From Amanita rubescens (Eukaryota; Basidiomycota; Agaricomycetes; Agaricales; Amanitaceae), in NCBI GenBank assembly GCA_015039365.1, contig WION01000107.1, positions 62,001-126,000 of the forward strand: 64,000 nucleotides of DNA. The letters run 5' to 3'. Position numbers and translations under genes: made by a program. Below are positions 2,483 to 19,503 of this stretch, one piece after another. The notes under the pieces are model-generated. The model did not search any database and had not been told where the DNA came from. It worked only from the letters and a program-made list of their open reading frames with translations. The stretch's first letter is position 1. Each line of letters opens with the position of its first letter.

Positions 2483-5400
2483 TCACTGGGTCACATGAGT
2501 AGTAATCTGTTCATAGAGAAATGTATACAAATCATCCTCATCAGAGGGTATAGACTTTGAAGTCATCTGAATCTTCAGTTTCTCTGCATAGTCTTGTGTC
2601 TTGAACTGGTCCAAGGCATCCAAGATTGAAGCCTGGATTGGCTTCTTGATAAAGAATGATAGCTTGGCAATGATATTGATTGCTTTTGGATATTAGCCCA
2701 GCAAGTAAATCCAACATAATTGAACATATTACCAACTAAGATTTGGCAAGCTGTGATCTGGTCACAAGAGGGTTAATTGCATATTGCATATCAAAGATAT
2801 GTAGGCCTTACATCCTTGAAAAAGCTTGTTTTTGCATCTCCAAATGAAGAGAAAAGCTCAGACTTTGAATGATGATGGGCAATACTCTTCAATTGAAATT
2901 TAGATGTGAACATACCAGCTATGTAAGAGATGAATTAGCATGCTCATTAAAACCATTAATAATATCATTTCTCACCTAAAGGAGTGAAAGAATAAATTTG
3001 TCACAAAGGGGTGTAAATAATATCTTACAATCTATGAATATACAGCAGTAAAATCAATGAAGAAAAAAAAAAAACATGAGTCTAGTCTTTACTTACTTTC
3101 TGATGAGTTTACACATGTCACTATGTTGTACACTTTGGGAAAAACTTGATCCACTTACCTCCTATTGACAATGGATGAGGTATTCATGCCCAAGTGTGTG
3201 CATTGCCACTCACTGTCTGTTAATCATGTGCTAAAGTTACCTATAAAACAAGAATTGTGGCACTCACTGCCTAACACCATGCAATGCAATATAGTGACAC
3301 TGTCTAGGAGAAAAAATACAGTGGCACTCACTTCCTTTTTCAGGTGATAAATTGTAATAAGAAGTTGGCATGACCACATTGTATTACTCACTTCCTGATG
3401 GTCATGGGATGAGATGATAAGATATAAGCCTCAAGAGAATTTTGTCTAAAATCACTTACCACCTATTGGACATTGGATTGGAATCAATTGAGATTCTCCA
3501 ATAAAATATGATATTGCTTACTTCCTGTTGATGAGGAATTGCATTTGATAAGGTTCCCAAAATAACAGAATCACTTACTTCCTACTCCATCAATGCAATG
3601 TAATACTATGATGAGAGAGCTGAGGAAAGGAATATGGTGTCACTTACAAACTGTCCATGATAGAATTGAATGTGATGATATTAATTGACAGAATAAATGC
3701 ATCATCACTTACAAACTGACAATTAATACATGTGACACTGATGAGAATGTGCAGCAGATCAATGCCAGTGTCACTCACTGCCTGGTCATTATGGGATAGT
3801 AGGAGTTTGCCTGGTAAAAGATATATATGTTTCTTACCATCTATTGGTCATGGATGAGACTTGGACTGCATAAGTGGAAATATGTGCAATATGACTTACA
3901 CTCTTTTGGTCATGCAATAAAACTATGTAGAAAAGGAAAATGCATTGTTACTCACTTTCTGTAGGTCAATCATGTCATGAGCTGTTTAAGTTGAAAGAAA
4001 GAAAATATTCAGTGATACACACAAGCTTTTGTCATGGGGTGAGTGTGTTTAACAAAAAAGAAAGGTATAGTGGTGCATACTTGCTGTTCATTGTATTGCA
4101 ATGAGATGAGCTGAGGAAAATGTAAAGTATCACTTACAGTGGCTCCCTATTGATCATGTTGAAAGATCACCTGGTGGGGAAATGTCCAATTTAACTCACT
4201 TGCTGTCATGTGAGAAGTGAAAAGACTGCCTTTCAAAAAAAGTTGAGTACCACTTACTTGCTATTGGTCATATACAGTAAAAATGAATCAATAGAAATAT
4301 GTTACAGTATCCCTTACATTCTGTTGCCATGGGACAAAATGTGACAAAACTATTAGAAGAAAGATTCCTTCTTACCACCATCTGTTGGAAATGCAATAAG
4401 ACATGATGGGAAAACTTGCCAACCAGTGTCACTGCACCACTTACATACTGTTCATATTGCTTAACACAACACAAGGCTATCCAATGGCAACATTCACTAT
4501 CACTCACTCTCTGTTTGATTTATGAGATGACTTGGATAAACCTATCTGGGAGATATGGACTGATGCTCACTGTCTGTTGGTCTTGGGATAAGACCATCTG
4601 CCATAAAGTTTGTGCTATCACTCACTCTCTGTTGGTTAATGTATGAGATATGATATTATAAATATGGCTCAGAGTCACTTACTGTCTGTTGTTCATAGAA
4701 TGAGACTAAAGCAGAAAATATAATATATCACTGACTGTCTGGGACCATAGAAAATCATGATAAGATTGAAAAAATGAGGTTAGGCACTCACAAACTGTTT
4801 TTCATCAAATGGGATTTTTTAGACTAGCTGGGGAGAGGTGCATGACATGATTTACTTTCTGTAGACCATGAAATTTGGAAGATGAGATTGCCTAAAAAGA
4901 GTAAATGCAGCATTGCTTACATCCTGTTGGAATAAGATACATATAAAGACTGCCCAAGAGAGATGTACCACAGTCCACTTACAGACTGTTATGCCAATGT
5001 ATGCCAAGATCTTTGAGGTTACTGTAAAACAAATCCACAGCACCACTCACAAACTGTTCATAGTTCATAGTTTTAATATGTGAGAACTGCTTGACCACCA
5101 CAAATTGTAATGCTTACAAGCTATTCATCATACAATGATGGGAACAGTGTTTAGTGGAAAATAACAGTGTGACTCACTGTCTATTAGTCATGACATTTTA
5201 ATTAGTGAGGTTGCCATCTAGCAAACAGTTAGGTGTTACTCACTTTCTATTGGTGATATACATGATAGTGAGATGGCCTGAAAAAATGTGCAGATTCACT
5301 TACAAACTGTTGTGATAAGATGAGGTGAGGAGTGGCTGAGATAATTGCAGTGTTACTCACTTCCACCTGGTCATGAAATGAGATCAGGTGTTCTACAATA

Positions 5401-7703
5401 AAGGGTTACATAAAAACCCACTGCCTATTTGGCATAATGAAAATACCCAAGAGAAATGTACAAAGTCACTCACTGGCTGTTGATCATGAAATGGGATGCA
5501 GTCAAAGTGATTAAAACAAAGTATCCTCACCTTCTATTGATAATGGAATGAGATCACTACACAAGACTGGGCAAACTGGACAATGTCACTTACTGTCTGT
5601 TAGTCAGGCAAGATGACTCAGGTGAATTGATGTACCTGGCAGTAAAATGTGCAGCACCACTCACTGCCTGTTAGTCATGTGGCATCAGATGCAAAGCCTC
5701 CAGAAGAGAATGTGGGGAATACTCACTTTATTTGGTCACAAATTAGGATATGTATGGTGCATCTTTGCAGAAAAACAAAAGTGATACTTGCAGTCTATTG
5801 GAACTGAGACAATGAGATGCCCAGAAATATCTGCAGATACTCACAAGCTATTAGGCAAAGGATGAGGCATGGCAAGAATCCCTATGAGGTGTGGAATATA
5901 ACACACTCTCTATTTGTTGTACAATGGTATGTAATCAGATAGTCTATCAGAATATAATGTTGCTCACTGGAGTTCTGGTGGGGCCACAGATGAGACACAT
6001 GAAAAGCATGGCAGAAAAATGGGTCATGTCACTCACAAACTGGTGATTGTAAGATGAACACTCATCAGGGTCATGGCTACTTCTTACCCACTGTTATCAA
6101 TGACATTAGATAGCTGTAGAAAATGTCACAATTTCACTCACATTTATTTCATTATGCTGTTTTCAAAATGTCATTGTTTATCAGACCTTCCTAGTACAGG
6201 TCAAGGGGACAGTCATACATCCTGATTATCATTCAACCAAGCATTTCTTTTTTTTTTTGGAAAAATCATACTCACATCTGACTGTTTCAATTTTCCCAAC
6301 AGTTCATGCATCTTTGCACAAATGGAGCTTACATTTCTGTCTACCTGGTTTTTACTTAGCTTTGTAGATCCACATGACATTACTTTGGAAACCTACCCAA
6401 TAATGGGGAAACTTGCTAAGAACCATGCTCATGACTGTATTCCATGAAAGTTCATTTTGAGCCAAGATATGTCTAAAGGTAGTTAATATCTATTAACATT
6501 CTGAATCTGATCCTCACTGAAGTGCAGTATTTGCACAAAGATCAAGATTGTTCCTTTGTGTTGAGACAAAGAGCTCTTGTAGGCTGCTATCATCAATTGC
6601 TTCTGCTGTCACTGTGGCTAATTCAGGACAGTCCTTCTCTGGCAAATCCATATCTGCCAAAAATCATTACTTTTGGAACAAGGATTATTTGTTTCCCCTC
6701 CCTTCCAATTGTACATATGCTTTTGGAGGATGTTTAGTGTTCAAAACCTTGGGCAGATAAATTTGCTGGAAAGCAGATTTAGCATTTATTCTAGCTTCAC
6801 CCCACTTATCTTTATCTTCTCCTGAATCACACAATTTTCCATATTCTGCAATGATTTGGCCATCAAATTTAGTGAATATAGTCACCAAGGGGACTGTTTA
6901 GATGAAATTTATATGTATGTAGACTGCAGGTGGTCCTGGACAGGACTTACCCTTCCCAGTTCCCTTGCTGAAAAATTCAAGTTCTGCAGATAAGAGAGGG
7001 CGAGGGCTGTCCATGGGTATACAATACCTATGAAAATTCATTCATTCACAGGCATGCAAAAAACCAGAATAAAATACCAAATTGCATGTAACTGATCTCT
7101 TAGCTCAATTGAAGCAGAACGCTTTTCAATGAATTTCCAAACAAGCTCCAGCTCCTCAGTAGCACCAGATTCAAATCCTTGGGAATCATGGAAGACAAAG
7201 TTGCTGCCTCTATAAGTAATCTGGTGCTCAATCTCATGGAGACCCCTCTGAAGATTGTTGCAATCCATGAAACCATCCAATAATCCTTTATTTGACTCAC
7301 CTCAGCAGATGGCATCAGATGTGTTTTAGAGGGTTCCAGTTGTTCACCTAAAAATCCTGAATGTCACAACAGTAGAAGCCTTTGCTTTAGCTCAGCTTAC
7401 CATTCTGATCATATATCATGGAGATTGTCCCCCGTGCCACACCACAAACCTTCTCAAGAATGGTTGTTTTTCCAGCATTAGCCCTCCCTATGACAAGGAT
7501 ACGAAAATAGGGGCATCTGTATCGATCTTTAAGTGTCCTAAGCAGGAAGTCTGCATCACCGCGGTTAGCAAGTCAGATTCAGATCCGAACAACTGATGAT
7601 AAAACTCACTGGACACCTTGCCAGAATTGTAGTTTAACTTTGAAATCTCTGCCAGCCTTGATTGACGACTCGGACGTGCATCGGTGATCTCCGAGTCTGC
7701 CAT
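2483..7703 (-). CDS. P-loop GTPase interrupted by an array of one-codon microexons
   Basis: Predicted G-domain protein of a family common in Agaricomycetes. Nine ordinary exons come first: 7610-7703, 7401-7550, 7301-7347, 7078-7247, 6951-7027, 6702-6893, 6518-6653, 6397-6472, 6276-6344. They encode the Walker A/G1 loop GRANAGKTT, the G3-like segment HDSQGFESG and the G4 motif TKFD. The microexon array follows (6221 down to 2916), then 2812-2862, 2733-2757 and 2483-2682 ending in TGA. Summed length is 1011 + 180 + 276 = 1467 nt, 488 codons plus stop, with no internal stop and all phases matching. The chosen start is ATG 7703; an in-frame ATG at 7757 would add 18 residues. One intron (6654-6701) lacks a GT donor. 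The gene is far more AT-rich than its neighbours, which hints at different origin or intron-driven drift. G-domain identity is firm; the biological role is unknown. Confidence 0.85.
2916..6221 (-). other. Microexon array: 48 exons of 3 nt, plus 6-, 9- and 15-nt exons
   Basis: In gene order, with the residue encoded if phase 0: 6219 D; 6142-6156 HNEIN; 6088 W; 6037 F; 5907 R; 5845 L; 5792 T (GC donor); 5665 A; 5594 T; 5531 K; 5474 P; 5423 A; 5361-5366 VE; 5304 F; 5244 K; 5178 T; 5118 L; 5051 F; 4983 S; 4921 D; 4856 K; 4792 F; 4736 T; 4683 T; 4626 R; 4571 T; 4508 R; 4445 Y; 4376-4381 MV; 4318 N; 4258 Q; 4200 Q; 4138-4146 GAT; 4081 Q; 4023 L; 3956 K; 3900 S; 3838 M; 3779 A; 3713 F; 3648 F; 3579 E; 3522 E; 3460 V; 3392 E; 3332 E; 3268 A; 3214 T; 3159 E; 3097 K; 3029 I; 2916 L (single numbers are the lowest base of a 3-nt exon). 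On the plus strand each unit reads cactYAC-NNN-CTgttggtcatg; on the gene strand that is putative branch site CATGAC, then acceptor AG, one codon, then donor GTRAGTG. The interiors of the introns are not similar to each other. Confidence 0.8.
2975..2976 (-). other. Zero-length exon / recursive splice site
   Basis: On the gene strand TCCTTTAG is followed immediately by GTGAGAAATG, with no codon between. It lies 53 nt from the preceding donor (3028) and 57 nt from the next acceptor (2919), exactly the spacing of its neighbours. It therefore looks like an array unit that has lost its codon. It could act as a ratchet point or simply be skipped within a 110-nt intron. Confidence 0.6.
6654..6701 (-). 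other. Intron without a GT donor in the GTPase gene
   Basis: Phase and family conservation place the exon junction at GAAG, which is followed by GGAGGGG instead of GT; the acceptor GGCAG is normal. An in-frame alternative uses the GTACAA donor a few bases upstream in the exon together with a later acceptor (GCCAGAG), losing about ten residues. This is either a donor mutation, a base error or a real GG-AG intron. Confidence 0.5.
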
Positions 7704-11949: not shown

Positions 11950-12036
11950 TCGGATATGGTGTAACGGCTAACATTGCCGCCTCTCATATTGCGAGATGGA
12001 ACGCGGCAGCTCGGGGTTCGATTCCCCGTATCCGAA
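11950..12036 (+). tRNA. tRNA-Glu(CTC) with intron
   Basis: Acceptor stem TCGGATA pairs with TATCCGA. An A box (TGGTGTAACGG) and B box (GGTTCGATTCC) are present. Anticodon stem arms GCCGC and GCGGC enclose 22 nt, that is a 7-nt loop with anticodon CTC plus an intron of about 15 nt 3' of the anticodon. Confidence 0.9.
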
Positions 12037-16567: not shown

Positions 16568-16653
16568 TCGGATATGGTGTAACGGCTAACATTACCGCCT
16601 CTCATTGAGTGAGATGATCGCGGTAGCTCGGGGTTCGATTCCCCGTATCCGAA
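16568..16653 (+). tRNA. tRNA-Glu(CTC) with intron
   Basis: Acceptor stem TCGGATA/TATCCGA. The D and T arms are nearly identical to the tRNA at 11950. Anticodon stem ACCGC/GCGGT encloses CTC and an intron of about 14 nt. Confidence 0.9.
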
Positions 16654-19415: not shown

Positions 19416-19503
19416 TTCCGGTACGGGGAATCGAACCCCGAGCTGCCGCGTTCTCGTCTTTCAACTTGAAAGGCGGCAATGTTAGCCGTTACACCATACC
19501 GGA
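19416..19503 (-). tRNA. tRNA-Glu(TTC) with intron
   Basis: On the minus strand the acceptor stem TCCGGTA pairs with TACCGGA. The D and T arms are as in the two tRNA-Glu(CTC) genes. Anticodon stem GCCGC/GCGGC encloses TTC plus an intron of about 16 nt. Confidence 0.88.

Follow-up and report, generated by a model that had tools for sequence, protein, structure and literature searches.

A GTPase gene interrupted by an array of predicted one-codon exons

We analysed a 64,000-nucleotide (nt) stretch of the genome of the basidiomycete Amanita rubescens, referred to as the window, whose minus strand carries a gene for a P-loop GTPase with an array of putative one-codon microexons (Table 1). A homologue search returned 1,776 homologous proteins, and the Pfam family MMR_HSR1 is present in some of the best 120 of these 1,776. 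The window protein itself matched no Pfam family at an E-value of 0.001, and NACHT and ANK domains were absent from the Pfam tables of the GTPase family. The GenBank model of the window gene (P0001; F5887DRAFT_1174475, Amanita rubescens) has 248 amino acids (aa) and ends inside an intron with a lost donor.

Table 1. Features of the window, with positions counted from its first nucleotide.
Feature	Position	Strand	Details	Basis
GTPase gene with microexon array	2483..7703	−	start codon 7703, stop codon 2485-2483; predicted exons 1416 nt, 471 aa	
G-domain part, ordinary exons 1 to 4 of eight	7703-7610, 7550-7401, 7347-7301, 7247-7078	−		homologous proteins
G-domain part, ordinary exons 5 to 8 of eight	7027-6951, 6893-6702, 6653-6518, 6472-6397	−		homologous proteins
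Ordinary donor reading GG instead of GT	6700..6701	−	same in L004-L007; read-through meets a stop	
Predicted exons VDRN and SD	6344-6333, 6281-6276	−	12 nt and 6 nt, separated by a 51-nt intron	length agreement with P0021-P0023
Microexon array	2916..6221	−	48 predicted one-codon exons plus exons of 15, 6, 6 and 9 nt	
Predicted exon HNEIN at array start	6156-6142	−	15 nt	
7-nt stretch between acceptor and donor	5974-5968	−		
Putative 0-nt exon	2976/2975	−	AG/GTGAG junction between ATT exon (3031) and CTG exon (2918)	
C-terminal exons	2862-2812, 2757-2733, 2682-2483	−	predicted helical part	
tRNA-like gene Glu-CTC	11950-12036			ARAGORN
tRNA-like gene, type undetermined by ARAGORN	16568-16653			ARAGORN + Rfam
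tRNA-like gene Glu-TTC	19416-19503			ARAGORN + Rfam

The array of one-codon exons claimed in the original prediction, which had been made from the sequence of this stretch, is real. It comprises 48 stretches of exactly 3 nt, each with an AG acceptor before it and a GT donor after it (once GC, at 5794), running from GAT at 6221 to CTG at 2918-2916. The remaining scored exons of that prediction, of 15 nt (6156-6142), 6 nt (5366), 6 nt (4381) and 9 nt (4146), were found again, and a further 6-nt exon (6281-6276) lies just upstream. No stop occurs among the 48 one-codon exons of the curated list, and all 62 codons of our own exon list, which includes the upstream 6-nt exon, are open; the original prediction had counted 60 codons and no stop. 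The introns are mostly 48-68 nt long, with a GTRAGTG-like donor, a branch-like TGAC and a CAG-type acceptor.

Upstream of the array, segment 6344-6276 had been proposed as a single 69-nt exon. It is indeed in frame, and retaining its central 51 nt would bring the total to 1467 nt instead of 1416. A 12-nt exon, a 51-nt intron and a 6-nt exon are nevertheless more likely, because the transcript-like homologues have that length. Two units within the array are irregular. The 7-nt stretch at 5974-5968 is probably a decayed unit that is skipped; parses of the sister loci L004-L007 also give a 7-nt exon at the matching place. Near 5725 the sole AG-NNN-GT reading is TGA before a weak donor, which the parser described below passes over, and this unit looks decayed as well. 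Omitting either of them leaves the frame intact.

Splice signals, spacing and stop codons across the family

Arrays were parsed from donor, acceptor and branch-like scores only, leaving exon length free between 0 and 30 nt; each tested locus was kept out of the training data. Two earlier parsers, the first of which modelled the acceptor rigidly, allowed no long introns and split the arrays into pieces, and the second of which still overlooked acceptors, were replaced by a final model with a movable branch site. The free parser called 45 three-nt exons in the window array with a score of 443, against scores of 8-23 and zero three-nt exons in eight non-array stretches of the window, and a chance motif was rejected on this basis.

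Across 23 parsed loci, 1,152 of 1,321 exons were 3 nt long, and none of the 1,152 is a stop. Several of these loci are copies of one another. The 14 non-redundant ones hold 751 three-nt exons (the window's 48 as curated, the others as parsed), with no stop against 53.5 expected from base composition. The parser is not blind to stops, since in a control with randomly planted codons it recovered 47 of 47 stops. Other parsed arrays contain 33-84 three-nt exons, and L054, a locus chosen for its array, has 82. Arrays were found in 28 of the 29 GTPase loci read (window, L001, L002, L004-L023, L052, L053 and L055-L058; L003 overlaps the window and was left out of the count). The remaining locus, L056, comprises the front part of the gene only.

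The introns of these arrays have the features of spliceosomal GT-AG introns, namely GT or GC donors, AG acceptors, a branch-like motif and a fitting length. Among 776 array introns of 45-75 nt from the 14 loci (median 61 nt), donors read GTGAG in 505, GTAAG in 117 and GCAAG in 11 cases, and the best branch-like A sits 8 nt before the intron end in 412.

The one-codon spacing recurs throughout the 75.7-Mb assembly. The motif ACAG-N3-GTRAGTG was counted 4,034 times (2,078 + 1,956), compared with 79 (38 + 41) for a reversed control. The corresponding counts were 76 (43 + 33) against 115 (80 + 35) for a gap of 4 nt and 119 (60 + 59) against 188 (88 + 100) for a gap of 6 nt, so that of the three spacings tested (3, 4 and 6 nt) only 3 is enriched genome-wide. 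A tandem form of the pattern occurs 2,816 times, with two occurrences in the control. The strict motif captures 326 of 748 parsed three-nt exons; scaled up accordingly, the assembly would hold ~9,300 codon exons, haplotype copies included. Prokaryote genomes, 257 Gb in total, contained 26 stretches matching a slightly longer pattern, and a pattern scan of a viral collection gave two. As a side observation, C190:186272-188422 and C229:26302-28450 contain 6-nt gaps (AAATCT, CAATCT, CAATAT), several of them spaced 68 bp apart; there may also be arrays of two-codon exons.

Codon usage in the arrays differs from that in ordinary exons. In the 14 loci, the third base of one-codon exons is A in 52%, T in 40%, G in 7% and C in 1%, compared with 26%, 38%, 19% and 17%, respectively, in ordinary exons of the same genes. 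The arrays write phenylalanine as TTT 72 times and never as TTC; ordinary exons use these two codons 45 and 36 times, respectively. Codon choice is evidently bent by the donor or by splicing. The avoidance of G directly before the donor is unexpected, because G is usually preferred at this base; it may in part avoid an AG inside the exon.

An AG/GTGAG-like 0-nt junction lies near the array end in 10 of the 14 loci, window included. An explicit scan found it in seven (window, L001 at 6201-6202, L002 at 7440-7441, L010, L011, L013 and L019), and the free parser adds an end-of-array junction in L016, L018 and L021. L020 also contains such a junction, but in another setting; none was present in L008, L012 and L014. 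Such 0-nt AG/GTRAG exons near array ends are possible recursive splice junctions.

A transcript-like protein carries a predicted array peptide

Several homologues labelled 'jgi' nearly fill contigs of ~1.5 kb (P0023: 478 aa on 1,486 bp). We infer that these contigs come from RNA, as complementary DNA (cDNA), because they are without introns although the genes have many. In P0021-P0023, 59-77 residues occupy the array position. The array region of P0023 reads ...DWFESADDAAGKEREYYDDGIHSGGYGYYGGKKISEKERDHRRDFVEREIL..., and the array peptide of the sister locus L001, obtained from splice signals alone and built from one-codon exons, reads DWFESADNAAA-ER-YYDDGVH--GYGYYGGEKISEKERDKRKDFVERE. The two agree in 37 of 43 aligned residues, in order, with four residues of P0023 lacking a partner. 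The alignment score was 191, whereas 1,000 shuffles of the exon order reached 72 at most (2,000 shuffles in an earlier run).

Five of seven transcript-like proteins tested (P0015, P0021, P0022, P0023 and P0071) score above every one of 1,000 shuffles of the locus that matched them best; this locus was chosen out of 23 for each protein, uncorrected. Margins are modest for P0015, P0021, P0022 and P0071 (70-78 versus 55-59). The array start W-F-E-Q-G-K-K-E-T-D-R-E, or a sequence near it, is written in single-codon exons in seven or eight of 12 loci, and the same or a close peptide was found again in P0015 and P0071. A protein search with the array region of P0023 returned P0023 itself only and no further transcript-like relative. 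The three-nt exons resemble coding microexons in having a length that is a multiple of three, no stops and a peptide found in a protein, and their expression appears likely from the intron-free contig of P0023. P0023, the absence of stops and the 3-nt spacing together support, at family level, the joining of one-codon exons in phase 0 that had been predicted for the window. Relative to the transcript-like proteins P0093 and P0023, L001 has apparent single-base shifts near 2135 and near 6317; this locus may be decayed or contain sequence errors.

The array is predicted to encode a disordered linker

An AlphaFold model of P0023, computed from 16 sequences with a mean predicted local distance difference test (pLDDT) score of 72.5, comprises a G domain and a helical C-terminus. 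Residues 316-360, which correspond to the array, have pLDDT values below 50, with block means of 34-38 over 321-360. The array is therefore predicted to encode a disordered linker between the two. When array peptides were tested for helix periodicity, no consistent signal emerged (P < 0.05 in 5 of 12).

The linker is hypervariable. P0021 and P0022, which are most simply explained as the products of two genes, are identical at 279 of 292 positions in the G part and at 87 of 92 in the C-terminal part. Their array peptides, of 60 and 77 aa, share 34 of 58 aligned residues. A Foldseek search with the model ranked the immunity-related GTPases (IRGs) GM4951 and Irga6 first among PDB structures, with E-values from 2e-5. 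IRGs combine an N-terminal helix, a G domain and a C-terminal helical bundle. Because TM-scores to these two are a weak 0.32-0.42, at 9-12% identity, the modelled likeness to IRGs is a lead.

Interpretation of the array

In our preferred reading, to which we give a probability of roughly nine in ten, 48 one-codon stretches of the window GTPase gene are spliced successively into a linker of ~62 residues that leads from the G domain to the helical C-terminus. The splice signals, the 3-nt rule, the absence of stops, the family-wide design and the presence of a sister-array peptide in P0023 are direct observations. Splicing would proceed stepwise and by intron definition, because a three-nt exon is too short for the machinery of both neighbouring introns; a strong donor, together with a branch-like A 8 nt before the end in about half of the introns measured, could make each of them recognisable alone.

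Several observations weigh against this reading. In the 14 loci, 100 of the 848 parsed exons have a length other than 3 nt; 18 of these are 0 nt, only 41 of the other 82 are multiples of three, and some of the longer ones contain stops (for example in the window, L001 and L014). We take most of them as misparses across missed acceptors or array edges, which is not proven. The L001 array includes an exon of 4 nt and what look like 1-nt shifts, and the L059 array (C13:581787-584708) has two 2-nt gaps and one 4-nt gap, which are frame shifts if real, or else errors. The cDNA nature of the jgi contigs is deduced from their lack of introns. Two transcript-like proteins, P0007 and P0044, have no clear match to a parsed array; for each, 7 of 1,000 shuffles score as high. 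A protein search with the array region of the window gave 132 candidates, none of them significant, and hence no transcript of the window copy. Finally, the donor after VQLE reads GG instead of GT in five of five copies (window and L004-L007), a loss that would truncate the protein unless splicing uses a different donor.

This lost donor, and the GenBank model P0001 that ends there, raise the question of whether the five copies have undergone decay or truncation, making the G-domain part only (~248 aa) and keeping the array as a passive remnant. The pattern of variation among the five copies argues otherwise. Variable sites make up 6 of 139 in array codons and 17 of 418 in splice signals, compared with 270 of 2,545 in the remaining intron sequence (Fisher P 0.014 and 7e-6 for the codon, splice-signal and intron comparison; gapped sites dropped). 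Single pairs show a smaller contrast or none (L005 vs L006: codons 5 of 129, introns 121 of 2706). Behind the lost donor, 8 of 222 sites vary in the downstream exons and 4 of 273 in the C-terminal exons, and the 48 codon exons have remained without a stop. We regard decay of this clade as rather doubtful, and think that another donor, possibly non-GT, replaces the lost one, because the coding parts behind it still appear constrained.

How the arrays change

Several arrays share one 62-nt consensus intron, and a genome-wide count gave 352 instances of one exact sequence (control 0). The 100 places listed for it lie in C12, C13, C79 and C82, nearly all in tandem at 65-bp steps. Mean site diversity in L014 is 0.13 in intron interiors and 0.57-0.70 at codon positions. 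Among 836 unit pairs with identical introns from eight arrays (mostly L014), 17% have the same codon, with baselines of 12% for all L014 pairs and 6% for the most distant pairs of the eight arrays. In L058, 23 identical 62-nt introns stand beside five codons (CGA, GGA, CAA, GAA and CTT); L059 has 41 exact copies of a 62-nt intron, separated by 34 one-codon gaps of four kinds (CTA, CAA, CGA and CTT; mostly C-T/A/G-A) and by three longer gaps that hold variant introns. The spread of codons next to identical introns may stem from a small number of original unit types multiplied by copying, and not from many codon changes (four types in 34 gaps in L059).

In L014, rare intron variants stay in register across a duplication of 18 units. 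The duplication was spotted by eye before counting, so that its P of 2.7e-12 does not come from a planned test; among 39 offsets scanned, offset 18 tops both shared codons and shared rare introns. The copies differ at 5 of 1,181 intron bases and at 11 of 57 codon bases; these changes affect 5 of 19 codons, three of them at all three bases. Nine of 16 pairs with rare identical introns share their codon, all in L014. L014 was also compared with its near-identical copy L053. Their arrays have a single mismatch among 5,094 intron bases and none among 246 codon bases, and differ in length by one whole unit (65 nt, one codon) plus 7 further gap bases; outside the array they are more divergent, with 52 mismatches in 6,956 aligned positions. 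As 0 of 82 codons differ, no ongoing codon hypermutation is visible there, and the one-unit difference could be an assembly slip in the repeat. L002 and its copy L052 have identical array peptides.

In the simplest account, units are copied together with their codon, introns stay alike, and codons are replaced or selected at duplication. The array would grow and shrink by unequal exchange between near-identical introns, which would add or remove whole codons and let the linker vary fast without loss of frame. In old arrays such as that of the window, intron interiors change more than codons and splice sites do; young arrays still have identical introns, next to codons that differ. The earlier claim that only splice signals are conserved thus describes the window array well, but several sister arrays conserve the whole intron.

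Introns could instead have been inserted singly between existing codons, by an introner-like process or reverse splicing, and not as intron-plus-codon units. Such an origin would suit the low same-codon rate beside identical introns (0.17, against 0.12 for L014 and 0.06 for the most distant pairs), the 352 exact intron copies and the five codons beside 23 identical introns in L058. It leaves the regular one-codon spacing unexplained, and is at odds with the in-register rare variants of the L014 duplication and with the codon shared by 9 of 16 rare-intron pairs; we consider it unlikely.

A three-base exon can be skipped silently, and the search described above found no transcript of the window copy. 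The array might accordingly be removed as one block, or most codon exons be skipped, leaving the codons as relics. The 59-77 residues at the array position of P0021-P0023, the order in which P0023 follows L001 and the conservation of array codons make this very improbable. Some arrays are near-perfect 65-bp repeats, but a non-coding minisatellite with an intron-like unit and meaningless 3-nt gaps is hardly credible, as the original prediction had also argued, given 0 stops in 1,152 three-nt exons with all 47 planted stops recovered, codons and splice sites retained in the window array while the interiors drift, and the sister-array peptide in P0023, which refutes it at family level unless P0023 is no transcript.

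Relation to known systems

The original prediction had considered a run of about 50 three-nt exons undescribed. This claim of novelty has been cut back, because truffle nank genes were already reported in 2012 to have dozens of codon-sized, 3-bp mini-exons. The source credited for them is reportedly Iotti et al. 2012, Fungal Biol 116:261. Later papers describe the nank (NACHT-ANK) genes of Tuber melanosporum as containing dozens or tens of codon-sized mini-exons and undergoing alternative splicing (PMC9815663, PMC4986451, PMC3689799). Both systems place dozens of consecutive 3-bp exons in an expanded gene family of an ectomycorrhizal fungus, and diversification of the variable region has been proposed for nank as it is here for the Amanita array. 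Tuber is an ascomycete with an NLR (NOD-like receptor)-type gene for which alternative splicing is reported, whereas Amanita is a basidiomycete with an unrelated GTPase family. Some 9,000 codon exons by extrapolation, an array in a linker and identical introns beside different codons set Amanita apart. In the open-licence literature, as far as it was accessible, we found no report of one-codon exon arrays in basidiomycetes. Judged against those sources, the kind of structure is known from truffle; the phylum, the gene family, the genome-wide scale and the uncoupling of codon from intron are new.

Schistosome micro-exon genes combine many tiny in-frame exons with a variable protein; their exons are longer and of several sizes, and the genes are unrelated to those of Amanita. 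Other systems share single features. The micro-Ex8 exon of Drosophila homothorax is a 3-nt microexon of exactly one codon, as here, but is single and alternatively spliced, with no run (PMC7392893). Introner-like elements of fungi are spliceosomal introns in many copies (PMC4457414), and are alike in being multiplied introns; the Amanita copies seen are tandem and one codon apart, within arrays of the type known from one gene family. The hnwd WD-repeat genes of Podospora anserina are recognition genes with highly similar repeats, a few hypervariable positions and repeat exchange (PMC9815663). There the repeat is coding, whereas in Amanita it is the intron, with three coding bases per unit.

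A wider reading, which we offer tentatively as a possibility short of even odds, is that the array is a frame-proof device that rewrites a protein residue by residue and gives an expanded family of immune-like GTPases a hypervariable linker for distinguishing self from non-self, having arisen independently in truffles and Amanita. The homogenised intron would act as both scaffold and homology arm, and single codons would be added, lost or swapped between copies with splice signals untouched. The identical introns beside differing codons in L058 and L059, the L014 duplication and the one-unit length difference allow for such a device.

If splicing is confirmed, the spliceosome handles dozens of consecutive three-base exons, in many gene copies of one genome, and the family would be a test bed for intron definition and stepwise splicing. 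Introns rather than coding repeats would carry the recombination that varies the protein. Together with the truffle case, this points to at least two origins of one-codon exon arrays in fungi, each in an expanded gene family.

Gene models at the array position

Confirmed splicing may also explain the early-ending gene models of the GTPase family. The GenBank models P0001, P0064 and P0107, and homologues from Jaapia and Athelia (P0102, P0116), end before the array position or lose track there. Gene prediction may fail on one-codon exons, and genera other than Amanita may have such arrays too.

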